DNA of 58,434 nt, from IMG/VR virus record IMGVR_UViG_3300035193_000026, positions 1 to 58,434 of that record. One strand, given 5' to 3'. The stretch's first letter is position 1, and every line of letters starts with the position of its first letter. The notes under the pieces were generated by a model. That model was not told the DNA's origin. It made no database searches and saw nothing but the letters and a program-made list of their open reading frames with translations. A program made the translations under genes and the position numbers. Of the stretch, positions 18,179-42,065 are shown piece by piece. The DNA is from a virus.

Positions 18179-18573
18179 TGAATTTCGATGAATACATAGG
18201 TATCCCCTTTGTTTCATGCGGAACATCAAAAGAAGGTTGTGATTGCTGGAGATTAATATGCCTTGTTTATAGAGAGAGATTATCAATTAATTTGCCAGAA
18301 TTCACTCAATTTGATGCTCCTAAAACTAAAGCAGAATTGATAAAGGTGACCAGGGCATTTAAGGAGAATAAAGTAAAGTGGATTAAAGTTAACGACCCTA
18401 AACCGTATGATGTCATATTGCTGAGAACAGGGAGCATGTTATATCATTCAGGGCTTGTAATTGGCAGAGATAGAATGATTCATATCGATAGGGGTATAAA
18501 CTCTACGATAGAAAAATATACCTCTAGAATATGGAAAGATAAAATAGAAGGGTTTTATCGCTATGACAAATAA
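18178..18573 (+). CDS. NlpC/P60-like tail tip peptidase (gpK-like)
   Basis: 131 residues. The papain-like triad positions are visible: Cys23 in GCDCWRL, His90 in YHSGLVI, and a further polar residue around IHID (102-104). Lambda gpK has the same fold and position. Such proteins may open peptidoglycan during DNA entry. There is no signal peptide. It overlaps the gpJ-like gene by 11 nt. Confidence 0.88.
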   Translation: MNFDEYIGIPFVSCGTSKEGCDCWRLICLVYRERLSINLPEFTQFDAPKTKAELIKVTRAFKENKVKWIKVNDPKPYDVILLRTGSMLYHSGLVIGRDRMIHIDRGINSTIEKYTSRIWKDKIEGFYRYDK

Positions 18574-21500
18574 AGATATAATTATATCGCCTAGTTCATT
18601 TCATGCGCCCAGGGTAATTCAGGTAGGTGATGGTTTATCTATTAATGAGATAGTTAATCAGTGTCATCCAGAGTATGCTAATTCACTGATGATTGAAATT
18701 AATGGCATCCCAATAACTAAGGATAAATGGAATATCAAACCGGATATAAATGATCATGTCCTAATATATGCTCCGATTATGGGAGGTGGAGGAGGTAAGA
18801 AGAATCCTTTGAGGATAATATTAACCATTGCTATAATAGTTATAGCTGCATATACTCAGCAATGGTGGATAGCGAAAGGTTATTTAGGTGGTGCAGTAGG
18901 TGGAGCGGTAGCCGGGACTGCCGTAGCGACTGCGGGTATGTTATTAGTTAATGCTATAGCTCCGATTAATACTAATACATCTTTGCCGAATATATCGCAG
19001 GATTCCTATAGTGAATCTCCTACATACTCTATTTCAGGCGGGTCGAATAGAACTAATCCTTGGGGTACAGTTCCCTTTAATCTTGGAGTTAACAGGGCTT
19101 ATCCTCCACTGGGGTCAGGTAGTTATACTGAGATAATAGATACTGTAGAAACAAAACAAAAATATATCCAACCTGAATATTCAGGGTATAACCCGTATCC
19201 TCCATATATGGAAAGCGGGTATGTCACATACAATGAGATCGTAGGAAGTGATGAGTATTTTAGGATATTAGTTATATGGGGGTATGGTCCCCTTGACATT
19301 TCAGATATAAAAATAAGGGATACTCTATTATCCTCATACTCAGATTACGATATAGAGACTAAAGAGGGATGGTCAACTGATACTGCAATAACCTTGTTCC
19401 CTACTCAGGTTAATCAAGAAACTGTCGGAGTTATATTGACTCAATCCGGAGGGATAGTACAAAGAACTGCGCCTGAAACTGATTGCGATGAACTATCAGT
19501 TGATTTGGCATTCCCGAATGGGTTGGTAGAGATTGAGGATGATGGTACAAGGACAAGTCATTCTGTAACGGTATTAATTCAATATAGAGAGGTAGGGGCG
19601 GGATCATGGACGACTCATGAAACGAAGGTTTTTACTGATAGAACTACCTCAGCTATTCGATATGGTACATCGTGGACTGTCGATAATACTAAAGAATATG
19701 AGATAGGTATAACCAGACAAACTGCGGATAGTGTTGATGATCAGATTATAGATGACGTATACTGGGTTAATCTAAGATGCACGACATGTGGAAATCCGAT
19801 CCAATCACCTTATCCTGTTGCAGCTACAGCGATTAAAATAAAAGCTACAGATCAGTTAAATGGTCCTATTAATACCATAAATGCTATCGTATCGTCATAT
19901 GCTCCTGTCTGGGATGATATTGGAGGGTCATGGAGTGTCGGAGAAAGTAATTATGAGATAACTCAAAACCCTGCTGCATTATATAGACATGTTTTAACTT
20001 GTGAGGCTAATGCTAAAGCAAGGACATTTACTCAAGTGGATAATGATGCGTTAGGTGAATGGTATGAATTTTGCGATACAAATGGATACAAGTTTAATTA
20101 TTATAAAGATACCCAGTCATCAGTATGGGACATCTTATCTGATATAGCATCAGCAGGAAGGGCATCACCATCAATAGTCGAAGGATTATGGACTGTAGCT
20201 GTTGATACTGGGGATCAAGCATTAGTACAGCATATCACTCCACGTAATTCATGGGGATTTAGTTCTGAAAAAGTTCTATTTGATCCTCCGCATGCTTTTA
20301 GAATTAGATTCGTAAATGAAGATAACGATTACGCATGGGATGAAAGAATTGTATATGATGACGGATATAATTATGGAAATGCAACCTTATTTGAATCTAT
20401 TACTCTTACTGGAATAACTGACCCTGATTTAATATGGAAATTTGGTCGATTCCATATCGCTCAAGCACGATTACGACCTGAAGTTTATACACTTAATATG
20501 GACTTTGAGCATCTTGTTTGTAATAGAGGCAGTAAGGTAAGGGTGTCTCATGACGTACCATTGTGGGGTGTAGGGTCAGGACGTGTTAAAACATTGACAT
20601 TAAATGGTCCAGCTACACATATTACTCATGTCACACTCGATGAATATGTCACAATGGAATCCGGCAACACATATGTATGTAGATTCAGATTAGCATCCGG
20701 AGATACATTGATAGAAAGTATTGTCCTTGATGTAGGAGAAACCAATACTTTAGAGTTTACAACCCCCGTATTAATCGCATCCGGTCCTGAAACTGGCGAT
20801 TTAGCTATGTTTGGGATTACTGATCTTGAGACTGTTGAATTGTTAGTTACATCTATTACAAGATCAACAGACTTAACTGCTCAATTACAGTTAGTTGATT
20901 TTGCTGAAGATATCTATGATGCTGATACAGGGGAAATCCCTGCATTTAATCCCAGCATGACATTACCTACTAATGTTACCCTAATCCCTCCCGACCCTCC
21001 AACTATAGATGATGTTTCAACTGGACTTGATGTGTCAACGATAAGTGGAGGTGGTTCAGTATCAACTATAAATGTTTATTTAACTGCGCCTGAAAATGCC
21101 ATTAGAATACGAGGTTACAGGGTAAGATATAGACTCGTCGATGAAACTGTATGGACATACACACTGGAATCAAGATCCTTGACTATCCCAATTTATCCTG
21201 TATCTGATCAACAGTCCTATGAGATACAAGCTCAATCAATCTCGGTTTATGGGATAGAATCTCAGTGGACATCTGTTGAAACTGGATCATCTGATATGCC
21301 TCAAATAGTTCCCGACTCTGCAACGGGAATATCATCAGCTATGCTAGCACCTGGTGGAGCTTATGATTATGGTGCAATATTGGTTACATTTACGCCTCCC
21401 GATCCTCCGGGAGTTTATGCGTATTCGGAAATCTATGCCTGTAATGATGATAGTACATATAGATATGTAGGACGTGACAGTACAGGTTCTTTTGTAATTA

Positions 21501-24064
21501 ACAAATTAGGTTCTTTATATAAAGTAGGAGATACGTGTTATATAAAACTGAGGAGCGTATCAAAATATGAAATAAGGGAGCCTTTACCGGGTTCTGCTGA
21601 TACCTCAGTTGTAGTGCAAGCTACTATAAAAATAGCATCTTTTTATTTCGGATTATATGATCAATGGGCTGGGAATGCTTCAATCGGTCATGCTGATACT
21701 AAAATTGTTATTGGTAATCTTGATGGTACTCCTCAGGTTAAGTTAGGTCCGAGTGCAGATTCCATTACATTTGCAGGGACACAAACAGGAGCGTTTATTG
21801 ATGGTGACGGATATTTCAGAGTTGGAAGCTCTACTTATGGGATGTCTTTTAATGCCTCAACAGGGGTACTTCACGCGGATAAATTAAAAGTAGGGTCTGG
21901 AACTTATATCGATATTGATGGAGGAAATGCGCGTATACGCAGTTCTAATTATGTATCGGGATATTTTGGTGCAGGGTTTACGCTTGAACCCGACTTGCTT
22001 GAAGTAGGAAATGTCGCAGTACGTGGAATAATAAGAACATCTGTATTTCAGTATGATTCAATATCTGCTCATGGTGGATCAAGAGTTTTAGCTTATGGTG
22101 CAGATGTGTTAGCCGCTGATATGACAGCCCTGGATGCCTCAACATTAACTATTGAGGGAAATGAAACATGGTCAGTTGGGGATATCTTGCGAATCAAAGA
22201 GGACACAGACGATGAGTGGTTGACAATAACGAATACTGGCTCTGCGCCTACATACTCAGTTACAAGAGATGAGGCAGGAAACTATGGAGCTGATAGTAAC
22301 CCTGCATGGACGAAGGGAGCTGCGGTTGTTAATTATGGTCAATCAGGAGACGGAGGTATTTATGAGACTGCATCCGAAATAAACGCACCTTATCAGAGTA
22401 TTTATATTCATTCTGGATCGCCTTGGTCAAGCATAACAACATTAATCAGGGAAGGCAATTTAAACGGTTATGCAGGTTATACTTCTGATCTTTATGGATG
22501 GGCTGCATACATTGACGCTGATAATTACATAACAATTGATCCTACAAATGGGATCAGCATGTCTGGATCAATCTCGATATCTTCTTTTAATCAACTCCCT
22601 TCAGATGAAAACCTTGTCGCCGATTGGTCATTTGATGATGGATCAGGAACACTTGCAATAGATAACAGCGGCAATGGTATAAATGTTACATTATATAATG
22701 CGCCTACGTGGGTAAATGGAATATCAGGTAAAGCTCTTAGTTTTACCTCAGCTTCTAATCAATATGGTGTGGCTACTGATAATTTATCATTTATAAATTT
22801 TGACAGCTCAGATGAATTTTCCATTTCAGGATGGTTTAAAACGACATCGTTTGCATCTACTCAAACATTGATAAGTAGATTAGCTGCTGGTCCCGAATAT
22901 ACAGGGTATTATCTATCTATTAATACGTCTGGGCAATTGGTATTTGGATTAATATCCGATGATAGCGCCAGTGATAGGTTAGATGTGAGAACGGGGGCGT
23001 TACTTACAGATACCCTTTACAAGTATTTAATAACGTATGATGGCAGTTTAGACGCTTCAGGTGTACACATATACATAGATACTGTTGATCAACTTGGATT
23101 AACAGTATTAAATGATAATTTGACAGGAAGCATTACAAATGTTGCCTCATTATATATAGGCGCAAGATTTGATGGAGAATATTATAATGGAATATTAGAC
23201 GAAACTAAAATTTATAATAAAATAATATCAGACTCCGAAGAAAAAGCCCTATACCTCAACCCTTCCGGTAATCAGAGCGCCACTGTAGGTGGTTTTGGAT
23301 ACAGCGGAGGATGGCATAATATAATAACAGCAAGTGGATCGGCTATTTATAATAACACTACTCTAAGGGCATTGTACGGAACTGAAATAGAGTTGTATGA
23401 TTCAGGAGGCACAAAAAAGGTTGATTTAAGTACTTCTGCTTTATATTTAGGGGACCAATCAAATGAACATTTAAAAGCAAGTTCAACAGGCATTGAGATA
23501 AAAGATGGCTCAACTGTGAATGCTTTATTTGGAACAACATCATACCTGGGAATACAAACAGATAACCATTTAAAGCTATATTCGACTGCAATTGAATTAA
23601 AAAATTCATCTACAGTATTAGCCTATTTTGATCAATACGGGTTTCATTCAGCTACCCAACCATCTTTTTTAGTTCATAACGCTTCATCTATTACTAATGT
23701 AACAGGTGATGGAACAACATACGCAATAGTTTGGCCTAATGAAGAATATGATCAAGGGTCTAATATATCATCTGGTGTATTTACAGCTCCCACATCTGGA
23801 ATATATATTTTTACAGCGAAGGTTAGAGCCAGCAATTTAAGTGTGGGGAATAGTGGATGGATTAGAATAGTAACATCAAATAGAATATTTTTAATGGATC
23901 TACCAACAACATTGGGTTCTACGTCTACATCATCACCTGTATTGACAACATTAGCTTATATGGATGCCTCTGATACTGCATATGTTGATATTCAAGTATC
24001 AGGTGGGACAAAAACTGTATATATTTTTGCTGGATCGACTTTCTCAGGGCAATTAGTGGCATAG
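18563..24064 (+). CDS. Tail tip / host specificity protein (gpJ-like) with LamG-like and C1q-like C-terminal domains
   Basis: 1833 residues. The N-terminal 130 include a ubiquitin-like start and hydrophobic glycine-rich stretches typical of this family; NPWGTVPFNLGVNRAYPPLG marks the hub. The middle is gpJ-like, followed by fibronectin-III-like repeats (about 810-1030). Residues about 1347-1565 match a LamG/concanavalin-type lectin (VADWSFDDGSG, FSISGWFKT, LYIGARFDGEYYNGILDETK). Residues about 1700-1833 match a C1q/TNF-like jelly roll (GVFTAPTSGIYIFTAKVRA). Thus a central hub and a receptor-binding fibre are fused in one chain. It decides host binding. Confidence 0.9.
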   Translation: MTNKDIIISPSSFHAPRVIQVGDGLSINEIVNQCHPEYANSLMIEINGIPITKDKWNIKPDINDHVLIYAPIMGGGGGKKNPLRIILTIAIIVIAAYTQQWWIAKGYLGGAVGGAVAGTAVATAGMLLVNAIAPINTNTSLPNISQDSYSESPTYSISGGSNRTNPWGTVPFNLGVNRAYPPLGSGSYTEIIDTVETKQKYIQPEYSGYNPYPPYMESGYVTYNEIVGSDEYFRILVIWGYGPLDISDIKIRDTLLSSYSDYDIETKEGWSTDTAITLFPTQVNQETVGVILTQSGGIVQRTAPETDCDELSVDLAFPNGLVEIEDDGTRTSHSVTVLIQYREVGAGSWTTHETKVFTDRTTSAIRYGTSWTVDNTKEYEIGITRQTADSVDDQIIDDVYWVNLRCTTCGNPIQSPYPVAATAIKIKATDQLNGPINTINAIVSSYAPVWDDIGGSWSVGESNYEITQNPAALYRHVLTCEANAKARTFTQVDNDALGEWYEFCDTNGYKFNYYKDTQSSVWDILSDIASAGRASPSIVEGLWTVAVDTGDQALVQHITPRNSWGFSSEKVLFDPPHAFRIRFVNEDNDYAWDERIVYDDGYNYGNATLFESITLTGITDPDLIWKFGRFHIAQARLRPEVYTLNMDFEHLVCNRGSKVRVSHDVPLWGVGSGRVKTLTLNGPATHITHVTLDEYVTMESGNTYVCRFRLASGDTLIESIVLDVGETNTLEFTTPVLIASGPETGDLAMFGITDLETVELLVTSITRSTDLTAQLQLVDFAEDIYDADTGEIPAFNPSMTLPTNVTLIPPDPPTIDDVSTGLDVSTISGGGSVSTINVYLTAPENAIRIRGYRVRYRLVDETVWTYTLESRSLTIPIYPVSDQQSYEIQAQSISVYGIESQWTSVETGSSDMPQIVPDSATGISSAMLAPGGAYDYGAILVTFTPPDPPGVYAYSEIYACNDDSTYRYVGRDSTGSFVINKLGSLYKVGDTCYIKLRSVSKYEIREPLPGSADTSVVVQATIKIASFYFGLYDQWAGNASIGHADTKIVIGNLDGTPQVKLGPSADSITFAGTQTGAFIDGDGYFRVGSSTYGMSFNASTGVLHADKLKVGSGTYIDIDGGNARIRSSNYVSGYFGAGFTLEPDLLEVGNVAVRGIIRTSVFQYDSISAHGGSRVLAYGADVLAADMTALDASTLTIEGNETWSVGDILRIKEDTDDEWLTITNTGSAPTYSVTRDEAGNYGADSNPAWTKGAAVVNYGQSGDGGIYETASEINAPYQSIYIHSGSPWSSITTLIREGNLNGYAGYTSDLYGWAAYIDADNYITIDPTNGISMSGSISISSFNQLPSDENLVADWSFDDGSGTLAIDNSGNGINVTLYNAPTWVNGISGKALSFTSASNQYGVATDNLSFINFDSSDEFSISGWFKTTSFASTQTLISRLAAGPEYTGYYLSINTSGQLVFGLISDDSASDRLDVRTGALLTDTLYKYLITYDGSLDASGVHIYIDTVDQLGLTVLNDNLTGSITNVASLYIGARFDGEYYNGILDETKIYNKIISDSEEKALYLNPSGNQSATVGGFGYSGGWHNIITASGSAIYNNTTLRALYGTEIELYDSGGTKKVDLSTSALYLGDQSNEHLKASSTGIEIKDGSTVNALFGTTSYLGIQTDNHLKLYSTAIELKNSSTVLAYFDQYGFHSATQPSFLVHNASSITNVTGDGTTYAIVWPNEEYDQGSNISSGVFTAPTSGIYIFTAKVRASNLSVGNSGWIRIVTSNRIFLMDLPTTLGSTSTSSPVLTTLAYMDASDTAYVDIQVSGGTKTVYIFAGSTFSGQLVA

Positions 24065-24088
24065 ATAAAACTATGTTAGATGGTTCCA

Positions 24089-24427
24089 CTAAAAACGAAG
24101 TTTATAATCTAAATACCAATTTCGGCCTGCATTTAAAATCTGAATACCAGTAATGGTTTTTAATAATCCAGTGCGATATTTGGGAAAATGATCGGCAATA
24201 AGATAATATAGGTAAGTCGTTCCAATGAAATATGGGATCACAACATCTTCTTTATAGATAAGTGGATTTAGTTCATTATCTTCTTTAACTATTTGCCTTG
24301 TTTGGATGCAGTCAATAGTTTGGAGAGTGGCTACGGCCCCCATTAACATTTTATCTCTTTTATCCCAATTGGTGAAAGAGCATCCTGAAGATAAAAGAAG
24401 TATTAAAAATATAAGTATAGTTTTCAT
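24089..24427 (-). CDS. Small lipoprotein, 112 aa
   Basis: The N-terminus MKTILIFLILLLSSGC is a lipoprotein signal with the lipobox SSGC, giving a mature lipid-linked protein starting at Cys16. CGGGAG lies six nt before the ATG. It is the only leftward gene between tail and fibre cassettes and points against the late operon, so it may be expressed in lysogens. Superinfection exclusion or surface alteration is a reasonable guess from comparison with other phage lipoproteins, but no motif proves it. Confidence 0.75.
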   Translation of the reverse strand: MKTILIFLILLLSSGCSFTNWDKRDKMLMGAVATLQTIDCIQTRQIVKEDNELNPLIYKEDVVIPYFIGTTYLYYLIADHFPKYRTGLLKTITGIQILNAGRNWYLDYKLRF

Positions 24428-24503
24428 GATATTCTCCCGGATATCAAAAAGGTTAGTAATGAATAAATTTTAGAAAATTAGATCAATAAAGTCAACATAA
24501 TAA

Positions 24504-24533
24504 TTGACAAAATCGCTAATAAAATGATAAGAT
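24504..24533 (+). promoter_or_regulatory. Sigma70-like promoter before the exported cassette
   Basis: TTGACA (24504-24509) is followed after 18 nt by TAAGAT (24528-24533). A perfect TATAAT at 24550-24555 lacks a matching -35 at the normal distance but could be an alternative -10. Transcription would run into the hairpin at 24558-24590. Confidence 0.5.
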
Positions 24534-24557: not shown

Positions 24558-24590
24558 AAGCGAACGGGAGATTGCTTCTGTTCGCTTTTT
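24558..24590 (+). terminator. Intrinsic terminator or attenuator before the exported cassette
   Basis: AAGCGAAC (24558-24565) pairs perfectly with GTTCGCTT (24580-24587), loop 14 nt, followed by a five-T run (24586-24590). The ribosome site AAAAGGAG and the gene at 24610 begin only some ten bases later, so this could end late transcription, attenuate the cassette promoter, or yield a short RNA of about 50 nt. Confidence 0.75.
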
Positions 24591-24609: not shown

Positions 24610-25092
24610 ATGAAAAAAATAGTATACGGATTGATCTTTTTAATAATTTTGGGATTTTCTGGCATGCTTTATGCTGCTGATGCAATGACGGTTACGCCTA
24701 TACATGATTCATCTTCAAATTTAATAGTAGTTAAGATAGATTGGACTGATTCACCAAATTTAACCCTTGAATCTCAATCGACCGGAATAAACAATTTATT
24801 GGCTGGGTGGTATTGTTATGGAGCAGAAACAGTTCCCGGAAGTGGGGCAGCTCAGCCGGATAATTTATATGATATTGTGGTAACAAATGCGGCAGGTACA
24901 GACATATTTGACACTGCATTAACAAATAGAAGCAATACTGGCAATGAGACAGCTTTGACAGTATTTAATTCAGCTAAAGGCCCATTCCCAATCAAACCTA
25001 GAGGATTAAGTGATGCACTTACAATAACCATTACTGGTCAGACTACGGCTGCGGGAACAGGAACTATTTATCTCTATTTTGCGAGGTATTAA
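24610..25092 (+). CDS. Exported protein of the fibre/lectin cassette, 160 aa
   Basis: AAAAGGAG precedes the ATG. Residues 1-22 form a Sec signal peptide (KKIVYGLIFLIILGFSGMLYA followed by AD). The mature part is beta-rich (Thr, Gly, Asn, Ser) with two tryptophans and no obvious catalytic motif. It is the first of four consecutive exported proteins. A virion or cell-surface structural role is inferred; I do not recognise the family. Confidence 0.7.
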   Translation: MKKIVYGLIFLIILGFSGMLYAADAMTVTPIHDSSSNLIVVKIDWTDSPNLTLESQSTGINNLLAGWYCYGAETVPGSGAAQPDNLYDIVVTNAAGTDIFDTALTNRSNTGNETALTVFNSAKGPFPIKPRGLSDALTITITGQTTAAGTGTIYLYFARY

Positions 25093-25093
25093 A

Positions 25094-26362
25094 ATGAAGA
25101 AAATATACTCTTTAATTATAATACTTTTATTTTCGGCAAATGTTTTTGCTGGGCCTTATTATCCTGACAGTGGGGGTAGTGGCAATATTGCCACAGACAC
25201 AATATGGGATGTAGCCGGAGATACAGTATATGGCACTGGCTCCAATACATCGGCAAGATTGGCAGCAGGTACGGCTTACCAACTATATATGATGAATTCA
25301 GGCGCAACAGCTCCAGCATGGACATCAACACTAGGGGTAACCGGGACAAGGCTTACAAAAATATGGACTACAGATATCGAATCAACTAATATGGTTACTG
25401 TTGGGGGCAATTCCCTTGCCACGATATTTCAGGGGCTTGATGCAGACCTTACAACATGGGCAGGGATAACACCATCGGCTAATGTCCAGACATTTTTAGG
25501 CTATGCAGATTTCGCAGCTATGAAAACAGGGCTTGGATATTACACTTCCGGTGATTCTCCTGTATGGGGTTCTTTAATGACTATGGCTAATGGTGCTGAT
25601 TTTAGAGTAGCCACTACAACTGATGGTCACAAGTTTACTATCCCTGTATACGACAATACTTCAGCAGGATGGCAGGATTGTTTATCCTTTGTAAATGGAA
25701 CAACTGGAAACTTTGGGGTATTACTTGAAAGTGGATGTTCTCTGCTTGGGTTGTCTTCACTGGATCTTCCAGAGAGTACCGGAGATATTCTAACCACAGG
25801 AACACTATCAGGACTGACAAATGTGGTCACAATAGCCAAGACATCAGGATTCACAGAGGATGGTGGATCTGATAGTAATACAGTGGCTACTGATTCAGGT
25901 GAATCGCTTGTATCTGATGCCTATATTGGAATGGAAATATATAATATTACTGATGGATCAAGTTGTACAGTAACAGATAATGACGGCACTACATGGACTT
26001 GTGACGGGCTTGCAGGGGGAAGTGATCAATTATTTCAGGATGGTGATGTAATTGGACTAGGACCAGGACCACGACAGTCAGGAACGATGTTTTTTGTTAG
26101 TGGAGCGACTACGATTTATCACCCTGCAACAGTTGGATACATGGCTGGATATTTTGCCAATGGAGCTAATGTAATAAAGGTTGATGTAGGTTCTGCGGCG
26201 ATGACACTCAATTTCTCTGACGATGGGACATACACAGATCCAACAGCCGGAGTAAGTGTGGATGGGGATGGAACAAATGGAGACTTTATAATATTTCTTA
26301 ATCAATCTGCAACAGAAGCTCAAAGCCTTGGAGTAAATGGCTCATGGGCAACAGGAAGTTAA
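25094..26362 (+). CDS. Exported tail-fibre-like protein, 422 aa
   Basis: Start ATG 25094 has GAGG upstream; the longer in-frame TTG start at 25079 lies inside the preceding gene. Residues 1-18 are a Sec signal (KKIYSLIIILLFSANVFA). The mature start contains DTIWDVAGDTVYGTGSNTSA and LAAGTAYQLYMMNSG, a repeat motif typical of phage tail fibres. The rest is Gly/Thr/Asp-rich beta structure. A fibre-like protein with a cleavable export signal is unusual, because fibres normally assemble in the cytoplasm. Confidence 0.75.
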   Translation: MKKIYSLIIILLFSANVFAGPYYPDSGGSGNIATDTIWDVAGDTVYGTGSNTSARLAAGTAYQLYMMNSGATAPAWTSTLGVTGTRLTKIWTTDIESTNMVTVGGNSLATIFQGLDADLTTWAGITPSANVQTFLGYADFAAMKTGLGYYTSGDSPVWGSLMTMANGADFRVATTTDGHKFTIPVYDNTSAGWQDCLSFVNGTTGNFGVLLESGCSLLGLSSLDLPESTGDILTTGTLSGLTNVVTIAKTSGFTEDGGSDSNTVATDSGESLVSDAYIGMEIYNITDGSSCTVTDNDGTTWTCDGLAGGSDQLFQDGDVIGLGPGPRQSGTMFFVSGATTIYHPATVGYMAGYFANGANVIKVDVGSAAMTLNFSDDGTYTDPTAGVSVDGDGTNGDFIIFLNQSATEAQSLGVNGSWATGS

Positions 26363-26364
26363 TT

Positions 26365-27141
26365 ATGAATAGGCGAGAATTTATTAAGAAAACTTATCAA
26401 ATTGGTGGATTAGCTGCATTATATTCATTAGGATTGTCTCATAGTGATATCTTAGCTCAAGGCATTGGCTTAATGGGCGGAGGCGGTGGTTTTCAGGAAA
26501 CTGGTGATACATATTCTGACATAACAATGTTTTGGACATGTGAAACTGCATCATTTGGATCTAGTGACTATCCTACGAGTGGTGTAACTGCAACGTTTGG
26601 GAGTTTATCTGATCTTACTGCAGACGCCGCCATAATAGGATCATATGGCCTAGATTGCCCAACGACATTTGATGCAGCAACTATAACAGTAACGAATGAA
26701 GATCTTGTAAACGGGACAGAATCTAGGATTGGATTCTATTACTATATAAATACATGGGCCGATGCTAATATGCTTTTTAGGGTAGAAGAAGCTGGTGATA
26801 CCTATGTGCAGGGTGAGCTTACTGGTGGGGACGAAATATTGATGCGCTGGAGAGCAGGTACTAATCTTACATATAGTTCATCAGCAGCTAATTTATCATC
26901 ATCACAAACGTACTACATTGAATATGCTTGGAATCAAACAGCACCTTACCGAAAAATCTACGTTGATGGTGTAGAAGTTATGTCTAATACAGATGCTTTT
27001 ACTGCTATAACTCCAATTAAAATACTTTTAGGAAATTACTCATCAGCCTCATCTGATACTTATCAGGATAATATCATAATCTCTAATGATGGAACAAGAG
27101 ATTTAAATGCTATTAAAGCATTGGAGAGTTCACCAAAATGA
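26365..27141 (+). CDS. LamG-like exported protein with a twin-arginine signal, 258 aa
   Basis: Start ATG 26365, with AGGAAG upstream and three nt after the previous stop. MNRREFIKKTYQIGGLAALY carries the RREFIKK twin-arginine motif followed by a hydrophobic segment, i.e. a Tat-type signal. A glycine run follows, then a concanavalin/LamG-like jelly roll with MFWTCETASFGSSDYPTSG, ESRIGFYYYINTW and RKIYVDGVEVMSNT. Tat export implies folding before export. A glycan-binding role is likely but unproven. Confidence 0.7.
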   Translation: MNRREFIKKTYQIGGLAALYSLGLSHSDILAQGIGLMGGGGGFQETGDTYSDITMFWTCETASFGSSDYPTSGVTATFGSLSDLTADAAIIGSYGLDCPTTFDAATITVTNEDLVNGTESRIGFYYYINTWADANMLFRVEEAGDTYVQGELTGGDEILMRWRAGTNLTYSSSAANLSSSQTYYIEYAWNQTAPYRKIYVDGVEVMSNTDAFTAITPIKILLGNYSSASSDTYQDNIIISNDGTRDLNAIKALESSPK

Positions 27142-28697
27142 AATATTTAAAAACAATAATATTATTAATATTCAGTATAAATATCTATGTTAATGCTACT
27201 CCAACTATATCGAGTACATCAGGGACACTCACAGATGGTGAAAGTCTGACAATATCTGGTACCTTTGAAAGTAAAAGCACTCCTGCCCCGATAAAGTGGG
27301 ATAATTTTGAGTGGGGCACTGATGGAACAACTCTTGACAATGACTCTGTATCCCCTGAATGGGAAGGGGATACTCCATCTCAGACTGATTTCCCTGAAAT
27401 AGATACATCCCAAAAACATAGTGGAACACGGTCAGCGTATGTTGATATGATAGCTAATAATGGCGATTGTGCTTTCTATGATGTTGGAATATACTTCACT
27501 GGTGGTACTGAGCTATATGCGTCTTACTGGATTAGATATGACACAGCTACTGGTTCGGATTTAGAGGGACCAAGAGCTGATTTTTTTAAATTTAACCGTA
27601 TTAATAGTGGGTCAGATATATATGGCGGTTCACCTAGTTTACTTATAAATCTATACCCAAATTATGATTTTCCTGAAACCGGTCGTATTGAGGTTCATAA
27701 TTATTGGAATGGAACATATGATGGGCATACTTCCAACATTGGGAGATATTATAATAATGATATGCGTAAACAAGTTTGGCACAGGGTTGAAATGTATTTA
27801 AAATTATCCAATCCTGGTGGAACATATACTGGTTATATCCAGTGGTTTCTTGATGGTGTTGAGGTGAATACATATTGGGCTGGTAATTATGTAGATAGAC
27901 AATGGAATGAAATAACTGGAGATTATGATTATATCACAAAGGCAGCAGACTCTTCTAATATAATAGATACTTTTTCTATGCTGTTCGGGGGGTGTGGGTA
28001 TACGGAAACAGAAAGACCGTATCTTTGGCAAGACGATGTTTATGTTGATAACACAAGAGCTAGGGTGGAAATTGGAGATAATAGCGTATTTGAAAATTGT
28101 ACCCATAGAGAAGTGCAGATTCCTTCCGCATGGGCTACGGATGAGATAACAGTAACTGTAAATGAAGGTTCTTTTGATTATGAAAATTCTACATTTTACT
28201 TATTTGTGGTCGATTCTGACGGGAATGCAAGTGACGGCTATGAAATAGATGGTACTGACACAACCGCCCCAACTCTTTCAAATTTCACAATAGGAACAGA
28301 CGGCCTTATATGGACCTTTGCTTACAGCGAAGTAGTAACTGCTACAGATGACGGTGATATGTGTGATGGATATGGAATTGAAATGTCCGCAGCCGGAGTA
28401 TTGACCTTTGCCTATGATGGTGGAACAAGGGGTTCAGGTAGCACTTTTACTTGTACTGGAAGCGCAACTGTTAATCAAGGTGATACTATTGTAGATGGGT
28501 TAAACTACACCCAGGGGTCAATTGAGGATATTGCTGATACCCCAAATGCCCTTGATACAATTGAAGATCAAACAACAGGATTTACCAATGGCAGTTTGCA
28601 GGGTGCAGGTGCCCCTGCTACACAGGGAAGCATGACCGGGGGCGGGACGGGTGTAGCTACAGGTGATGGTGGATTAGGTGGTTTTTATGCGGATTAA
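27138..28697 (+). CDS. Exported jelly-roll protein, lectin or polysaccharide-lyase-like, 519 aa
   Basis: Overlaps the previous gene by ATGA. Residues 1-21 are a Sec signal (KYLKTIILLIFSINIYVNA). The next part resembles a bacterial Ig-like domain (TPTISSTSGTLTDGESLTISG), residues about 50-330 look like a large beta jelly roll (LYASYWIRYDT, VWHRVEMYLKL, IQWFLDGVEVNTYW, RPYLWQDDVYVDNTRA), followed by another Ig-like region and a Gly/Thr-rich tail. The jelly roll is of the type found in lectins and alginate-type lyases; no catalytic set could be fixed by eye. Confidence 0.65.
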   Translation: MKYLKTIILLIFSINIYVNATPTISSTSGTLTDGESLTISGTFESKSTPAPIKWDNFEWGTDGTTLDNDSVSPEWEGDTPSQTDFPEIDTSQKHSGTRSAYVDMIANNGDCAFYDVGIYFTGGTELYASYWIRYDTATGSDLEGPRADFFKFNRINSGSDIYGGSPSLLINLYPNYDFPETGRIEVHNYWNGTYDGHTSNIGRYYNNDMRKQVWHRVEMYLKLSNPGGTYTGYIQWFLDGVEVNTYWAGNYVDRQWNEITGDYDYITKAADSSNIIDTFSMLFGGCGYTETERPYLWQDDVYVDNTRARVEIGDNSVFENCTHREVQIPSAWATDEITVTVNEGSFDYENSTFYLFVVDSDGNASDGYEIDGTDTTAPTLSNFTIGTDGLIWTFAYSEVVTATDDGDMCDGYGIEMSAAGVLTFAYDGGTRGSGSTFTCTGSATVNQGDTIVDGLNYTQGSIEDIADTPNALDTIEDQTTGFTNGSLQGAGAPATQGSMTGGGTGVATGDGGLGGFYAD

Positions 28698-28729: not shown

Positions 28730-29122
28730 ATGGGTACTGAATGCGGAGATAAAAAATGTCAGCAAAAGGCTGAAGACACACATGAAGAGGTATTTAACAA
28801 GCCGAGTGGATTAAAGGAGCGAATGATGAAGGTTGAAAGAAAGAAGATCCCATGGATAGCTTTAGTATGGATAGTTCCTGTGATTATTACTGTTTCAGGA
28901 ACTATATTCGGATTTATGTATACTTCGTATGCATCAAATGAAGGTAAACAGGACACTAAAATAGAGAAAATAGAAGGTGAAAATAGCTATCAAAAGATTG
29001 AAATAGCTGTTTTAAAAGATAGGACACAAAATATATTAACAGCTCAGAATGAAACAAATGAATTATTGAAACAACTTATTGAGCAAAACACTGAAACAAA
29101 AAAAGACAAGAAAGACAACTAA
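28730..29122 (+). CDS. Membrane-anchored coiled-coil protein (XhlA-like), 130 aa
   Basis: GAGAGG precedes the ATG. There is a charged N-terminal region with cysteines, one transmembrane helix (IALVWIVPVIITVSGTIFGFM), then a coiled coil (KIEKIEGENSYQKIEIAVLK onwards). The architecture resembles XhlA/hemolysin-like accessory lysis proteins or tail-associated membrane proteins. With the holin-like protein at 29653 it probably forms a lysis module. Confidence 0.65.
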   Translation: MGTECGDKKCQQKAEDTHEEVFNKPSGLKERMMKVERKKIPWIALVWIVPVIITVSGTIFGFMYTSYASNEGKQDTKIEKIEGENSYQKIEIAVLKDRTQNILTAQNETNELLKQLIEQNTETKKDKKDN

Positions 29123-29186
29123 TAACTTGTAATTCACAACATCGTGGAGTAGAATATAGTCAGATAGATTGATTTACCGTTTTATC

Positions 29187-29286
29187 GAATCTGAAACCAG
29201 GTAACCTGGCAAGTAGGATTCACCCGCCCGACAGGGGCTTAAAAAACAGGTGGGGTGAAATTCCCCACCACCTCTTAGCAGGAGGT
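29187..29286 (+). promoter_or_regulatory. Structured leader that can hide the ribosome site of the next gene
   Basis: Four hairpins follow one another: GAATC/GATTC enclosing CCAGG/CCTGG (29187-29221), GCCC/GGGC (29226-29238), GGTGGGG/CCCCACC (29249-29255, 29263-29269) and ACCTC/GAGGT (29270-29274, 29282-29286). The last hairpin covers GGAGGT of the gene starting at 29291. The third and fourth stems are adjacent and could stack. No U-run follows, so a terminator is unlikely. Confidence 0.5.
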
Positions 29287-29290
29287 AAAC

Positions 29291-29641
29291 ATGTCAAATA
29301 TAACCCACGACGAACAGCACAAAGGAAGAAACGCTGTAAGTTGCCTTCACGGTTTTTTACTATCCAAACTGATCAATCACAAAATATCTAAAAATGAGTA
29401 TGATTTAGTAAAAGTATGGCTTGCCAATATAGGTGATATCTTTGATAAATGCAATAAAGGAGCCGATGCCAATGCCAGATTGCTGGCTATCAGTCAATGT
29501 GGAGAATGCAAACATAGAAAAGCTGGCAAAGAATATTATTGCGGACATGATGATTTAAAAGATATTCCGATAAATGAAAAATTAGTGAGTTTTTACACAA
29601 TTATAGAGATATGCCCACTTGAAAAGGGTATAGCTCATTAA
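29291..29641 (+). CDS. Hypothetical zinc-binding-like protein, 116 aa
   Basis: GGAGGT precedes the ATG but lies in a predicted hairpin. The protein is helical at first and then has CGECKHRKAGKEYYCGH, a probable zinc cluster, followed by a cysteine in ICPLEK. No family recognised. It stands between the coiled-coil membrane protein and the holin-like protein, so a role in lysis timing is possible but unsupported. Confidence 0.65.
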   Translation: MSNITHDEQHKGRNAVSCLHGFLLSKLINHKISKNEYDLVKVWLANIGDIFDKCNKGADANARLLAISQCGECKHRKAGKEYYCGHDDLKDIPINEKLVSFYTIIEICPLEKGIAH

Positions 29642-29652
29642 GGAGAAATAAA

Positions 29653-29886
29653 ATGAAAGACAGGGAATTGAATCTATATGTATTGGCATGGACAATAATA
29701 ATAGGCTTTTTTACTTTATGTGGTATATTAATGTGGAAGCCATTACCTCAAGGCAGTAACGAGGTAGTTTTTATGCTTTTTGGTGCACTGTCAGCCGGAT
29801 TTGGGAGCGTGGTGGGCTATTTCTTTGGCTCGAGTAAATCTAGCTCAGATAAAACAAAAATGCTTTCTCAGAAGCCTACCGAATAA
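29653..29886 (+). CDS. Holin-like membrane protein, 77 aa
   Basis: AAGGAG precedes the ATG. Two hydrophobic segments are visible (LYVLAWTIIIGFFTLCGILMW and VVFMLFGALSAGFGSVVGYFFG), followed by a Ser/Lys-rich cytoplasmic tail. The pattern ending FGSSKSSSDKTKML is common in phage holins. Holins make the timed membrane lesion in lysis. No endolysin gene is adjacent. Confidence 0.75.
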   Translation: MKDRELNLYVLAWTIIIGFFTLCGILMWKPLPQGSNEVVFMLFGALSAGFGSVVGYFFGSSKSSSDKTKMLSQKPTE

Positions 29887-30023
29887 TGAAGCAAAAGAAC
29901 CCTCCAACAGTAAAACCATGCCCCATTTGCGGATATCCTGTTGAGATATGGCCGTGTCCTAAATGTGGTAAAACACGGCCACTGTGGAAGTATTGGGATG
30001 AAAAGAAATCCTGGCCGATATAA
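29886..30023 (+). CDS. Zinc-ribbon mini-protein, 45 aa
   Basis: Starts on TAATG shared with the holin stop. Two knuckles CPICG and CPKCG lie 11 residues apart, giving a compact four-cysteine zinc ribbon, followed by a Trp-rich tail. The last gene of the late rightward group; it converges on the leftward early operon. Function unknown. Confidence 0.65.
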   Translation: MKQKNPPTVKPCPICGYPVEIWPCPKCGKTRPLWKYWDEKKSWPI

Positions 30024-30031
30024 CAATTGAA

Positions 30032-30289
30032 CTAAGACGCAAGCGGGTTGCCACAGTTCGGACAGAATTTATATCGCTTATCACCGCAACCACTTCTGCA
30101 CACTTCGCAAGATTCCCGCTTGTCGGCCTTGAGTGGTGGGTCGCGAGGATTGCCTAATATTTTTACAAAGCGACTTTTTAAACAGTCTTTTTCATATTCT
30201 ATAATTGGGTCATCCTCTGCCAAATCAAAATGCAACTCATCAATAGCAGCTTGTACAAGATCGTCAATTAATTCCGATGTTATTCTCAT
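30032..30289 (-). CDS. Hypothetical protein with a C-terminal zinc ribbon, 85 aa
   Basis: The ATG at 30289 is preferred because GAGG precedes it; seven further codons upstream are possible. After two acidic helices comes a Cys-rich end with CEVCRSGCGDKRYKFCPNCG. This is the last gene of the long leftward early operon. Function unknown. Confidence 0.6.
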   Translation of the reverse strand: MRITSELIDDLVQAAIDELHFDLAEDDPIIEYEKDCLKSRFVKILGNPRDPPLKADKRESCEVCRSGCGDKRYKFCPNCGNPLAS

Positions 30290-30353
30290 AATATCCTCAT
30301 AATAAGTCATCTACCGTCTTTACCGGTAGGGGTTAAAGATTGGTCAGCTGATT

Positions 30354-30539
30354 TTAAGTTCCATTTTCTTCTGTAAATTCTGTTTTACATTTTGGGCATT
30401 TATAATGTTCAGTCCAAGTTTGATAATTTATATCTCCCGGAACTGCATCAACATTTGTAACTTTTCTGAGAACAGGACCGCCTATTTTATAATCTTCATC
30501 TCTGGAATATGGCGACCATCCACATTTAGGACAACTCAT
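30354..30539 (-). CDS. Zinc-ribbon protein, 61 aa
   Basis: Start ATG 30539, with GGAGGT upstream, fixes the N-terminus as SCPKCGWSP; longer versions lack a ribosome site. A second knuckle CPKC lies near the C-terminus, so the pair forms a zinc ribbon. Function unknown. Confidence 0.65.
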   Translation of the reverse strand: MSCPKCGWSPYSRDEDYKIGGPVLRKVTNVDAVPGDINYQTWTEHYKCPKCKTEFTEENGT

Positions 30540-30580
30540 TTTTACCTCCAATCTATAACTCTCCTGAATAACAGGGCAGG

Positions 30581-30874
30581 TTAACATTTACATCTTTTAC
30601 AATATAAGTTTTCATCCAATAATCCACCACAAAATCTGCATGGTAAGATACCCTCCTGCTCCTGTTGATTTGTGGGTTCTGGTGTAACACATAACACATC
30701 TCTATATTCCTCCAAATATTTAGATAATCTTTCTTCGGCATCATGTAGTTCATTTTTTGCCGTTTCAACTTTATCTTTTAATATTTCATAATTAAGTTGA
30801 ATCGCCTCAACCTGATCAGGGCAATATTCAATATTGCAATCACCACATGGTTTATCATTAAATTCACAAGTCAT
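30581..30874 (-). CDS. Coiled-coil protein with terminal cysteine clusters, 97 aa
   Basis: Begins with CEFNDKPCGDCNIEYC, continues as a charged helix of about 40 residues and ends with CRFCGG and CKRCKC. The start overlaps the previous gene by ATGA. The layout suggests a zinc-bound helical hairpin. Function unknown. Confidence 0.65.
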   Translation of the reverse strand: MTCEFNDKPCGDCNIEYCPDQVEAIQLNYEILKDKVETAKNELHDAEERLSKYLEEYRDVLCVTPEPTNQQEQEGILPCRFCGGLLDENLYCKRCKC

Positions 30875-31197
30875 ATTCCCTCAATTGTTTTATAGAGTGC
30901 CTCCGCTCTTTGGAGCGGGGAGGCGGTTACTATTTTAAAGGTTATGTAATAAATTGAGCAGTCATACGCTCGAGATAGTTTCCAGATATAAAGTTCCCTT
31001 TTCCCCTCTGGTATCTTTTCCTCACACATTGCCACCTGATCCCGGCTTTCTGAGGGATTCCAAACTTCGCAATCACATTCAGCATCTTCAGGATTAATCC
31101 AATAGCGGAGGCCATATTCGTCTGCCCAGTACCCTCCCATATCAGACCACCCCATAACCTTCTCAGCCAGCCATTTATTTAACTCTTCGTTTATCAT
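30871..31197 (-). CDS. Phage ABA-sandwich-like protein, 108 aa
   Basis: The start LNKWLAEKVMGWSDMGGYW, and later YWINPEDAECD, resembles the phage ABA sandwich domain, a common small early-gene fold of unknown role. AAGGAAATAAA precedes the ATG. Confidence 0.7.
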   Translation of the reverse strand: MINEELNKWLAEKVMGWSDMGGYWADEYGLRYWINPEDAECDCEVWNPSESRDQVAMCEEKIPEGKRELYIWKLSRAYDCSIYYITFKIVTASPLQRAEALYKTIEGI

Positions 31198-31222
31198 TTT
31201 ATTTCCTTATTGGATTAAGTAA

Positions 31223-31390
31223 TCACCAATCGATCGAATCAGCATGGTTACAAAACTTTTTAATAATCCGGGCTATCTTTTCCTTTTTTAATTGCAAACG
31301 TTTAGATAAAATAGGTTTTACTTTGTCATTAACAGTTTTGCAATCTTTTTGTTCTTTTTCTGTATTACATATTTTTATTATGTCTGCCAT
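31223..31390 (-). CDS. Hypothetical basic protein, 55 aa
   Basis: AGGATC precedes the ATG by four nt. Lysine-rich helical protein with three cysteines (ICNTEKEQKDCK, FCNH). No family recognised. It lies in a tightly packed leftward series of small genes with ribosome sites. Confidence 0.55.
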   Translation of the reverse strand: MADIIKICNTEKEQKDCKTVNDKVKPILSKRLQLKKEKIARIIKKFCNHADSIDW

Positions 31391-31391
31391 T

Positions 31392-31556
31392 TTAGATCCT
31401 ATGCCACTCCCCTACAGTATACCTGATCCACTTTTCAAATTCCAGCTTATATTCTTTATATCCCGGGCATTCTTCCTTTAGGTCGCATTTTTTAATGCAA
31501 ATCGGCAAAGGCATCCTGGGGTTATTCTTCTTTTTCTGACAGACTACGTATTTCAT
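31392..31556 (-). CDS. Cysteine-containing mini-protein, 54 aa
   Basis: GAGGGATAG precedes the ATG. Cysteines at VVCQKKK, ICIKKCDL and EECPGY suggest metal binding. The C-terminal helix contains FEKWIRYTVGEWH. Function unknown. Confidence 0.6.
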   Translation of the reverse strand: MKYVVCQKKKNNPRMPLPICIKKCDLKEECPGYKEYKLEFEKWIRYTVGEWHRI

Positions 31557-31568
31557 CTATCCCTCACT

Positions 31569-31754
31569 TTACATATCAGGTAAAGCGTCAATTTCTTTGT
31601 CTGACATTTCAACATATTCGATAGTAGCCGGTTCTTCTGGATAGTTACTTGCTTCATCAGCCCACATACCAACTAATTCCAACAATTCTGATTTGGTTTT
31701 AACTATCGTATTCATGAAACCATCGCCAAATTCTGGACTTAATCTAAATGCCAT
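31569..31754 (-). CDS. Hypothetical protein, 61 aa
   Basis: GGGAGGT precedes the ATG at 31754, which beats an upstream in-frame GTG at 31778. The product is acidic, with a helix (KSELLELVGMWADEA) and ends DALPDM. No family recognised. Confidence 0.6.
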   Translation of the reverse strand: MAFRLSPEFGDGFMNTIVKTKSELLELVGMWADEASNYPEEPATIEYVEMSDKEIDALPDM

Positions 31755-31774
31755 TATTATACCTCCCTGTGTGG

Positions 31775-32080
31775 TCACTTTATATTGTTCTCAAAAAGAT
31801 ATCTATTAAGTAAATCCAAAGCATATTCCATAGCCTGCCATTCATCAATATGAATAGCTCCATCATGAACTTTTCGATGTTCATCATTGGTAAGAGGTAT
31901 AACGTACACGTCTGAGCATTTAACACCTTTACCACTGCCCGGACCAAAGTGGTGTGGAATAGTCCTCTGTTCGCCCGTATTGGGATCATAGTCCATCTTA
32001 CCGGAAAAGAATGATAGTTGCCTTGATACAAAGTCAAGAAACTTTTTCGACCTCCATTTCACCGGCTTGGGAAATTGCAT
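31775..32080 (-). CDS. HNH-like nuclease of the DUF968/Ref type, 101 aa
   Basis: HHFGPGSGKGVKCSDVYVIPL followed by NDEHRKVHDGAI matches the HNH-like fold found in DUF968 and Ref-type phage nucleases, in which an HH pair and a later H..VH coordinate metal. AGAGGAC precedes the ATG, which follows the previous stop directly. Such proteins may help recombination with RecA-like ATPases; the nuclease activity is inferred. Confidence 0.65.
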   Translation of the reverse strand: MQFPKPVKWRSKKFLDFVSRQLSFFSGKMDYDPNTGEQRTIPHHFGPGSGKGVKCSDVYVIPLTNDEHRKVHDGAIHIDEWQAMEYALDLLNRYLFENNIK

Positions 32081-32467
32081 TTAGTCCTCTACCTTGAATC
32101 CTATATCAGATAATAAATTATTCATCTCAAAATTGCGCCTGCTAAAATGCTTAACGTATGTTCTTAGTTTACCATGATTATGTTTATCTAGGGCTATAAA
32201 ATTATTTGCTCCGTCAATGGTAAGGAAGAATTCTATATCTTGCCATACATAACCCACCTGAACTGATTCGGGATGGTGTTGCAATCTTTTCATACAATTA
32301 CCTCCACATTCTTCACAAGGATATTCAATATGTGTCTCACCATCACCAATTACGGAATATCCATCATCAAAAACTCCAACTGGTATAAGTTCTTGCACTG
32401 TAACGTATATAGGCCATCTTGTTCCGCGATTATCCTGTTTTGCATATTTATATTTCAGGCTTTCCAT
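32081..32467 (-). CDS. Hypothetical protein with CxxCxxxC motif, 128 aa
   Basis: GGAGGT precedes the ATG. Contains PCEECGGNCMKRLQHH, possibly zinc-binding, within a mixed alpha/beta sequence. No family recognised. Confidence 0.6.
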   Translation of the reverse strand: MESLKYKYAKQDNRGTRWPIYVTVQELIPVGVFDDGYSVIGDGETHIEYPCEECGGNCMKRLQHHPESVQVGYVWQDIEFFLTIDGANNFIALDKHNHGKLRTYVKHFSRRNFEMNNLLSDIGFKVED

Positions 32468-32468
32468 C

Positions 32469-32765
32469 TCACACCTCCTTTAAATATTCTTCCCATGCCC
32501 TTCTCAAATTACAATCAGGACAGTTAGGGTTTTTACAGTCTTCATCAATACTGTCCTTATAGAAACGGTCAACAGCGGCTATGAGTTTTTGTGTGGACTT
32601 AACCTTAAATGATTTCAAAATCTCAATTATCCGCAAGGCCTCACTTTCGTAATCATGTTTTGTGTTATCGGATAGGTTTTTATATTGCGTCCCGGGTGAG
32701 AATCTTCCTGCGCTCTGGTCAAATTTAAAACATGCCTCGGCTATTTGGGGTAGTTTTATTTTCAT
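32469..32765 (-). CDS. Hypothetical protein with C-terminal cysteine cluster, 98 aa
   Basis: Helical N-terminal part followed by DEDCKNPNCPDCNLRRAWEEYL. Overlaps the preceding gene by 4 nt (ATGA). The cysteine group suggests zinc binding. Function unknown. Confidence 0.6.
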   Translation of the reverse strand: MKIKLPQIAEACFKFDQSAGRFSPGTQYKNLSDNTKHDYESEALRIIEILKSFKVKSTQKLIAAVDRFYKDSIDEDCKNPNCPDCNLRRAWEEYLKEV

Positions 32766-33046
32766 GGTTTATCCTCATTAGGAATATCTTTTTTCATAAT
32801 GCTAAATTTTATGGTTTCAATGTCATATCCACGTTTTTCTAATTCATCAAAGAGGCTTATATCCCATGAATCATCAATAACATTATGCCTTTGACTCCCT
32901 AAAACAAGGTGTAATAAACTGGAATCACATCTTGGCACACCATTACCTCTTGAATAAATAATGTCAGGTGAATTATGTGGAAGCTTACCGTAGTATATTT
33001 TTAATTCTCCATCTTTTGTTTTTGGTGCTCGATATCTTTTTTTCAT
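32762..33046 (-). CDS. Hypothetical protein, 94 aa
   Basis: Basic start (KKRYRAPKTKDGELKIYYG), then a mixed fold. AGGTAG precedes the ATG. It sits between a zinc-cluster gene and the NinB-like gene. No family recognised. Confidence 0.6.
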   Translation of the reverse strand: MKKRYRAPKTKDGELKIYYGKLPHNSPDIIYSRGNGVPRCDSSLLHLVLGSQRHNVIDDSWDISLFDELEKRGYDIETIKFSIMKKDIPNEDKP

Positions 33047-33523
33047 TTAATCTACCTTTTTCGGATCTGGAATAAATACTCCATGTTCGATGCTTGCCCA
33101 CCTTCGTATTTTCTCAACATAACTGTTTTCATCATTGGAAAAAAATTCCTCAGTTGATAATTTAGTAGTGCTCCCACCTATCATCTTACCGGGATGTATT
33201 TTACTTTCTATTGGGTTAAACATTTCCTTAAGCTCTGTGTGCATCTCTTCCGGTTCATATCCGAAGTGCTCAGCGAGTATTCCGACTACCACAGGCCAAT
33301 AATATTTATTTTGCAGATCAGTACGTTCTTTCTTGTGTTTCCTGATAATAATATCAACACGGGTTCCAGGTTTAAAAGTATTATACCATATCTGCATTTC
33401 CTTTTTGACATTAGGGGCTACTTTTAAAGTATGATCGTTTAAAATATCGCCTTCAAATATTGGGGTTACTTTTTTTGCCACGCCTGAAAACACCTCCAAA
33501 ACAAGGTTTAACTTCCAGTTCAA
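33047..33523 (-). CDS. NinB-like recombination protein, 158 aa
   Basis: The central segment IIRKHKKERTDLQNKYYWPV, followed by VGILAEHFGYEPEEMHTELK, is typical of NinB-type proteins of lambdoid phages, which bind single-stranded DNA and assist recombination. It overlaps the nuclease gene by 4 nt and lies in one cluster with the Sak4-like ATPase. Function follows from family likeness. Confidence 0.75.
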   Translation of the reverse strand: MNWKLNLVLEVFSGVAKKVTPIFEGDILNDHTLKVAPNVKKEMQIWYNTFKPGTRVDIIIRKHKKERTDLQNKYYWPVVVGILAEHFGYEPEEMHTELKEMFNPIESKIHPGKMIGGSTTKLSTEEFFSNDENSYVEKIRRWASIEHGVFIPDPKKVD

Positions 33524-34116
33524 TTTAACTTCTCAGGAATAAAATCTTTTATGAAATCCACAAGATTTCTTATGCCTGATTCTAAATCGCTGACCATATC
33601 CGGGTATCGATACATCTTAACTGAAGATATATTGTCTATTGTGATAATGCCCTTTTTATCTTTGGCTGAATAAATATAATATTCAAAGGTATCTGCATTG
33701 AAAATATCCAGATACGCTCTCCATTGGTAACTATCAAAGTAAGTATCAATATTCTCCCTGAAAGTTAGCTTGTGGTCTTTCACTGTATTACCTGTTATTC
33801 CATCACATCCGCCAGTTAAAACAATATCTAATCCATCAACATTATAGGTCTTATTTGCACGGATTTCCCTTATCTGTGGCAAGTTGATTTCAGCCTCACA
33901 ATCCACTTTGAATTTAAATCCTGAATGTTCTACGGTATCTATTGAATCAGGCGGATTTTCAAGAATGGAATGCCATGCTGTACCCATAGCCATTTTATCG
34001 TTGGGAGCTTCGGTTCTTAATATTCTTGATCGCATATCTTCGACTGACATGTTATCAAGTTTATTATACCATATCAGGCTATCAAGGTCGGTTACGTGTA
34101 GAATTAGTTTATTCAT
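33520..34116 (-). CDS. PD-(D/E)XK exonuclease-like protein, 198 aa
   Basis: The start at 34116 is chosen for GGAGGG six nt upstream; the longer frame overlaps the HNH gene. Motifs include GTAWHSILE, then GGCDGITGNTVKDHKLT giving the D...DxK metal and catalytic set of RecB/Cas4-like nucleases, and YQWRAYL. Together with the ATPase and NinB-like protein it forms a recombination/repair cluster. It probably degrades DNA ends. Confidence 0.8.
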   Translation of the reverse strand: MNKLILHVTDLDSLIWYNKLDNMSVEDMRSRILRTEAPNDKMAMGTAWHSILENPPDSIDTVEHSGFKFKVDCEAEINLPQIREIRANKTYNVDGLDIVLTGGCDGITGNTVKDHKLTFRENIDTYFDSYQWRAYLDIFNADTFEYYIYSAKDKKGIITIDNISSVKMYRYPDMVSDLESGIRNLVDFIKDFIPEKLN

Positions 34117-41904: not shown

Positions 41905-42065
41905 ATTTAGCAGGGCCTAAGCCCGCGCCCTCGGTCGAAACCAGAGGGGGAATTGCCCCTTTGTGCCTACATTATCTCCTACGCACTAAGCGTAAGGCTT
42001 CAGCACTCAGGGGCTTTTACTGGCAGCTTGTATCTTTACAAAAAGGAAGCCTGCCAGCAAATTTA

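Follow-up and report, generated by a model that had tools for sequence, protein, structure and literature searches.

The window analysed here is a virus record from IMG/VR (IMGVR_UViG_3300035193_000026; 58,434 bases). Its layout is that of a lambda-like siphovirus, with genes for TerL, portal, protease, HK97-type major capsid protein (MCP), tape measure and a gpJ-like tail-tip protein of 1833 amino acids (aa). An earlier note, made from the letters alone, had pointed to four consecutive genes, termed P1 to P4 below, whose products seemed to combine export signals with fibre- or lectin-like domains. All four open reading frames (ORFs) exist and lie collinearly after the gpJ gene:

24610..25092, + strand: P1, 160 aa; predicted Sec signal at 24610-24675, mature small jelly-roll protein at 24676-25092.
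25094..26362, + strand: P2, 422 aa; predicted Sec signal at 25094-25150, tail-fibre-like segment aa 41-78 at 25214-25327.
25766-26356, + strand: C-terminal domain of P2, aa 225-421, common to an exported 997-aa protein of loci L024/L025.
26365..27141, + strand: P3, 258 aa; predicted twin-arginine (Tat) signal with NRREFIK at 26365-26457, LamG-like region aa 108-226 at 26686-27042.
27138..28697, + strand: P4, 519 aa; predicted Sec signal at 27138-27197, C-terminal immunoglobulin (Ig)-like domain aa 368-489 at 28239-28604.

P1 and P2 are separated by 1 nucleotide and P2 and P3 by 2 nucleotides, the P3 start at 26365 (ATG) being preferred over 26344 (AGGAAG ribosome site). P3 and P4 share a 4-nucleotide ATGA overlap (27138-27141). 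Because the gaps are +1, +2 and -4 nucleotides, the ATGA coupling ascribed to the cassette is right for P3/P4 and wrong for the other two junctions. GC content at third codon positions (GC3) was 0.23-0.27 in P1-P4 and 0.24 in gpJ; thus, recent acquisition of the cassette is not indicated.

Export signals were called with a rule-based script, the criteria being a basic n-region, a hydrophobic core and an A-x-A-like site, with an RRxFxK-type motif for Tat. Sec signals were predicted for P1 (MKKIVYGLIFLIILGFSGMLYA, cleaved before ADA), P2 (MKKIYSLIIILLFSANVFA, cleaved before GPY) and P4 (MKYLKTIILLIFSINIYVNA, cleaved before TPT). P3 begins with MNRREFIKK and a weak hydrophobic stretch, and its predicted Tat signal was MNRREFIKKTYQIGGLAALYSLGLSHSDILA, cleaved before QG. 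The three Sec signals and one twin-arginine signal proposed earlier were therefore recovered by these rules. The same predictor was applied to genes of at least 120 aa from lambda, N15, T7, HK97, D3, T1 and Mu, a control set of mostly enterobacterial phages. Five of 260 genes scored, corresponding by position to lom, Rz-type spanins and a SAR (signal-anchor-release) endolysin, and the longest run was two genes; detection of lambda lom served as a positive control. At least three of the four cassette products are very probably exported.

Single queries of IMG/VR with P1, P2, P3 and gpJ gave no close relatives, and tblastn with P1-P4 against 50,697 cultured-phage records gave no matches. A two-sequence alignment of P1 and the first cassette gene of another IMG/VR phage, G001, retrieved 16 further loci, and wider scans added more, including two contigs of metagenome-assembled genomes in GTDB. 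P1 belongs to a phage family of YDIT/NRSAT jelly-roll proteins, with homology over most of the mature chain and a conserved P..YDI motif; its identity was 34.8% to L027 (E 1e-11) and 42% to L016 (E 2e-11). Among cultured-phage records, the family reaches Methanosarcina virus MetMV via non-exported relatives; no exported form had a counterpart in culture. In this archaeal virus a non-exported P1 relative (L032 7983-8408, AZF89954.1) has as neighbours a giant gene and one for an adhesin-like product of 522 aa, and this gene order is also present in IMG/VR locus L027.

The collected P1 family comprised 13 members with a signal and 12 that start directly at the mature sequence, typically with MAGSxTVT. 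In four exported members (L026, L030, L049 and L061), predicted cleavage leaves AGS or AGT, which is the N-terminus of the cytosolic form after Met removal. Exported and non-exported P1 forms differ by a cleanly added, predicted signal. Exported P1 of L049 and non-exported P1 of L034 are 60% identical, and both genes lie between MCP and connector genes. That slot also holds exported P1 in L016, L026 and L030 and non-exported P1 in L051 and L054. L016 resembles the window in its MCP, connector, tape measure and gpJ; its exported P1 lies in the head module, and the other cassette genes are absent. On the best P1 tree, export state changes ~8 times; at least two changes are forced by starred (well-supported) branches, and many branches are weak. 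Export state was clustered no more than shuffled labels. Sequence comparison thus showed that the predicted signal was repeatedly gained or lost on an otherwise conserved P1 protein.

The AlphaFold model of P1 (predicted local distance difference test score [pLDDT] 78.8) had an all-beta, jelly-roll-like fold, so that the description of P1 as fibre-like was not borne out; the model is a small jelly roll. Its best PDB match was a weak one to a capsid chain of cyanophage Pam1 (E 1.1e-3, probability 1.0, template modelling score 0.45), and the capsid of Helicobacter phage KHP30 also matched. Matches to predicted viral structures reached E 6e-8 and were mostly to unnamed phage proteins. Together with the frequent MCP-connector position, the model makes a decoration-like role plausible for the non-exported form.

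P2-P4 had very few relatives. The P2 segment of aa 41-78 shared 63% identity over 38 aa with an exported fibre-like protein of L022, and the P2 segment shared with L024/L025 was 37% identical over 199 aa to their exported protein. In L022 and the near-identical pair L024/L025, exported P1 is followed directly by the exported protein sharing the P2 segment, as in the window. The fibre-like segment of P2 begins ~20 residues past the predicted cleavage site. A tail fibre would have an N-terminal attachment region and no export signal; P2-P4 begin with export signals. In an exported 574-aa fibre of L018, a shaft motif present in annotated tail proteins starts right after the signal. The cultured Pseudomonas phage ZRG1 encodes an annotated tail protein that has no signal and in which ~165 residues precede this motif. 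The exported L018-type fibre therefore seems to have no tail-attachment region.

The LamG assignment of P3 is sub-threshold: aa 108-226 matched Laminin_G_3 of Pfam (E 0.0013) at 19.4 bits, below the gathering threshold of 27.6. The Ig-like domain of P4 was found at 52-66% identity in exported proteins of two other IMG/VR phages, G001 and G002, and was not found in GTDB genomes; a Cys pair is invariant in P4 and its relatives. P4 also gave weak CBM matches in Pfam. Its AlphaFold model had a pLDDT of 38.8, so that the jelly roll ascribed earlier to P4 is putative. PDB sequence searches with P3 and the N-terminal part of P4 gave no match. The Ig-like domain weakly matched T-cell receptors in the PDB; these matches were fold-level at best and were not used. 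The N-terminal part of P4 did not align significantly with the last protein of G002, and homology is not claimed.

G001 and G002 have backbones otherwise unlike that of the window: TerL, portal and MCP families differ or could not be aligned, and the only backbone match was a connector (E 8e-8). G001 has five consecutive exported genes, from 44767 down to 32651, between TerL and transmembrane (TM) genes plus portal, with Beta_helix and PKD domains among the products. G002 also has five (24887-28686); one encodes a lipoprotein and another a product of 60 aa, and the run lies between tail-like genes and glycosyltransferases. Almost no exported genes occur outside these runs in either phage. Across the P1 loci, neighbours of exported P1 were more often exported than neighbours of non-exported P1 (14/84 vs 4/118, p 0.002, counted by gene, the genes not being independent). 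Counted by locus, exported neighbours occurred at 7/10 exported-P1 loci and 3/12 non-exported-P1 loci (p 0.08). The claim of a late cassette of exported fibre- or virion-type proteins has good support, which these relatives strengthen. Comparison of the genomes established the predicted signals, the tight operon and the recurrence of exported cassettes in unrelated phages.

Other features of these phages were recorded. In G002 (L003), a 1674-aa protein consisting largely of SISxS/SPSxS repeats is encoded upstream of the exported genes (19413-24437), and downstream of them (~28800-35000) follow several genes that resemble those of glycosyltransferases and methyltransferases. A signal-bearing protein of 216-290 aa is encoded in the head module near the portal gene in L019 (4655-5305), L022 (10279-11013) and L023 (12748-13620), a set that includes phages with non-exported P1. 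The window MCP had a best identity of 49% in Desulfobacterota genomes, and no cassette like P1-P4 was present in the Desulfobacterota prophage fragments examined.

The cassette is flanked in the window by the following features:

18563..24064, + strand: gpJ-like tail-tip protein, 1833 aa, upstream neighbour of the cassette (phrog_31, E 1e-110).
24089..24427, - strand: small lipoprotein (MKTILIFLILLLSSGC) between gpJ and the cassette, from its ORF and a signal call.
24504..24533, + strand: promoter-like TTGACA-18-TAAGAT, one of 23 such sites found (23.7 expected from shuffled sequence).
24558..24587, + strand: terminator-like hairpin just 5' of the P1 ribosome site (-18.8 kcal/mol, z -3.95).
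28730..29122, + strand: single-TM protein directly 3' of the cassette, weakly holin- or spanin-like (E 0.006-0.02).

Promoter-like sites were not above chance, and the proposal that the cassette has its own promoter was dropped. The terminator element is a strong fold, but it lies upstream of the cassette. The placement between tail and lysis genes is sound on the gpJ side; on the other side, the lysis label is weak. A perfect GC-rich hairpin (GGTGGGG...CCCCACC, 29249-29269) lies in the intergenic stretch that follows the TM gene and is terminator-like on the - strand. Elsewhere in the window, 41952-42017 (- strand) matched the Rfam DUF3800-VIII RNA (RF03075) at 41.3 bits (gathering score 40.2), and a gene at 80-1396 (+ strand) joins a ParB-like nuclease region (phrog_620) and a PAPS-reductase-like region (phrog_424).

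We tentatively favour the view, with a probability of about 0.42, that the cassette is a late operon of virion-type adhesion modules that are exported via Sec and Tat and mask glycans or receptors of the host on dying cells and cell debris. P1, P2 and P4 would leave the cytoplasm by host Sec and P3 by Tat, carrying a decoration-like jelly roll (P1), a fibre segment (P2), a LamG-like domain (P3) and an Ig-like domain (P4). No lipobox was present in any of the four products (0/4), and no outer-membrane anchor, autotransporter, sorting domain or barrel family was among their Pfam, PHROGs and NCBIfam matches. In a two-membrane host the soluble products would therefore get no further than the periplasm, unless taken on by a type II system of the host, and they would act at or after lysis. 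The products may gather in the periplasm late in infection, or exit by the host type II system, and disulfides can form there. Their putative binding to host-surface glycans or receptors is the least certain step. Masking would prevent the cell or its debris from capturing superinfecting phages and, once lysis has occurred, the progeny of the phage itself, as Cor- and Llp-type proteins achieve by other means. A masking role fits the post-J slot, which is that of lom and Cor, and the apparent absence of tail-attachment regions.

Several points weigh against masking. The signal calls came from a script and not from SignalP. The P1 fold, and the location of P1 in the head module of many related loci, speak more for the virion than for the host surface. 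Because no outer-membrane anchor was matched, the products may fail to get to the outer surface before the cell lyses. An excess of Cys in exported P1 forms was not significant (p 0.07-0.08) and is suggestive only. A surface coat on the infected cell, as first envisaged, is less supported in view of the missing lipobox and anchor. Polysaccharide remodelling is not backed by any enzymatic domain in the cassette. Superinfection blocking, aid to release and decoration of virions after lysis are all possible.

In the main rival explanation, the exported proteins, P1 above all, are virion components that would fold and become oxidised while they wait in the periplasm; they would join capsids or tails only at lysis, once the contents of the two compartments mix. 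This explanation, which we consider unlikely overall, fits better than masking with the P1 fold and its matches to the Pam1 and KHP30 capsids, with exported and non-exported P1 sharing the MCP-to-connector slot, and with the cytosolic N-terminus regenerated by cleavage in four relatives. Against it, the fold match to the capsids is weak, exported fibres of the P2-like kind apparently have no tail-attachment region, P1 of the window lies after gpJ and distant from the head genes, and no precedent for exported tailed-phage structural proteins was found in the open-access literature searched. The usual assumption for tailed phages is that virion proteins are synthesised in the cytoplasm and that assembly takes place there. 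Somewhat more doubtful is the wider proposal that tailed phages complete part of the virion outside it: decoration and adhesin proteins would be exported by Sec and Tat, would undergo maturation and oxidation in the periplasm and would be added to virions only at lysis, with the signal switched on and off repeatedly on one decoration-like protein. Such an assembly stage was not described in the open-access literature searched.

A lysogenic-conversion moron that alters the lysogen surface and has no lytic-cycle role would suit the post-J slot of lambda lom and N15 Cor and the promoter-like and hairpin elements 5' of the genes. It is improbable, given that no integrase was found among the window genes scanned, that the promoter was not above chance, that GC3 matches gpJ and that P1 belongs to a phage family and is not a host gene. 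About equally improbable is that the products are secreted to depolymerise or loosen a matrix, so that progeny can leave a biofilm or capsule; the cassettes have domains of lectin-like and beta-helix type (Beta_helix and PKD in G001, the weak CBM in P4), and the two TM genes that follow the G001 cassette also speak for it, but no catalytic family was matched in P1-P4 (Pfam, PHROGs, NCBIfam) and the PDB searches were empty. That the N-terminal segments are hydrophobic tails without export is very unlikely: export is predicted here by rule-based calls, but four adjacent genes have canonical n/h/c regions and AxA-like sites, plus the Tat twin, and four relatives regenerate the exact cytosolic N-terminus.

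These findings suggest that phages have, on repeated occasions, sent particle-type proteins of their own out of the cell that they infect. A P1 family in which half of the collected members have a clean, apparently removable signal, in runs with other exported adhesins, would mean either a hidden extracytoplasmic step of virion maturation or widespread management of the host surface with recycled virion domains. Searches of PHROGs and NCBIfam with the cassette proteins gave nothing meaningful; because such proteins have almost no PHROGs, Pfam or NCBIfam matches, current annotation would not reveal them.

Among known systems, head decoration or cement proteins with a jelly roll are a weak fold match for P1, without a sequence relationship, and many P1 relatives occupy a head-gene slot. 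To our knowledge, all known decoration and cement proteins are cytosolic; unlike them, P1 has a predicted cleavable signal, as do about half of the relatives collected. T5 Llp-type proteins are receptor-blocking lipoproteins. The logic proposed for the cassette would be analogous, in that masking of receptors before lysis would shield progeny from debris; P1-P4 differ in having no lipobox and no likeness in size or sequence. Lom of lambda and Cor of N15, phi80 and T1 are, like the cassette products, exported phage proteins encoded after a J-type tail-tip gene: lambda has lom in this slot, and N15 and T1 have Cor. FhuA is the receptor that Cor inactivates (PMC11436027). The cassette shares with them the position after gpJ and the export signals; Lom and Cor are single small outer-membrane proteins or lipoproteins, whereas the cassette encodes four soluble, multi-domain, proteins with virion-like domains in one operon, one of them Tat-targeted, with no lipobox and no match to a barrel family. 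The Cor gene of phage T1 is antisense in the same region, as is the lipoprotein gene at 24089-24427 after gpJ, whose product may be a superinfection-exclusion or outer spanin protein. The likeness to phage tail fibres lies in the P2 segment of aa 41-78, through its match to the exported fibre-like protein of L022, and in the L018 shaft motif, which annotated tail proteins also have; here a predicted signal takes the place of the N-terminal attachment region, and the genes form a separate late cassette.

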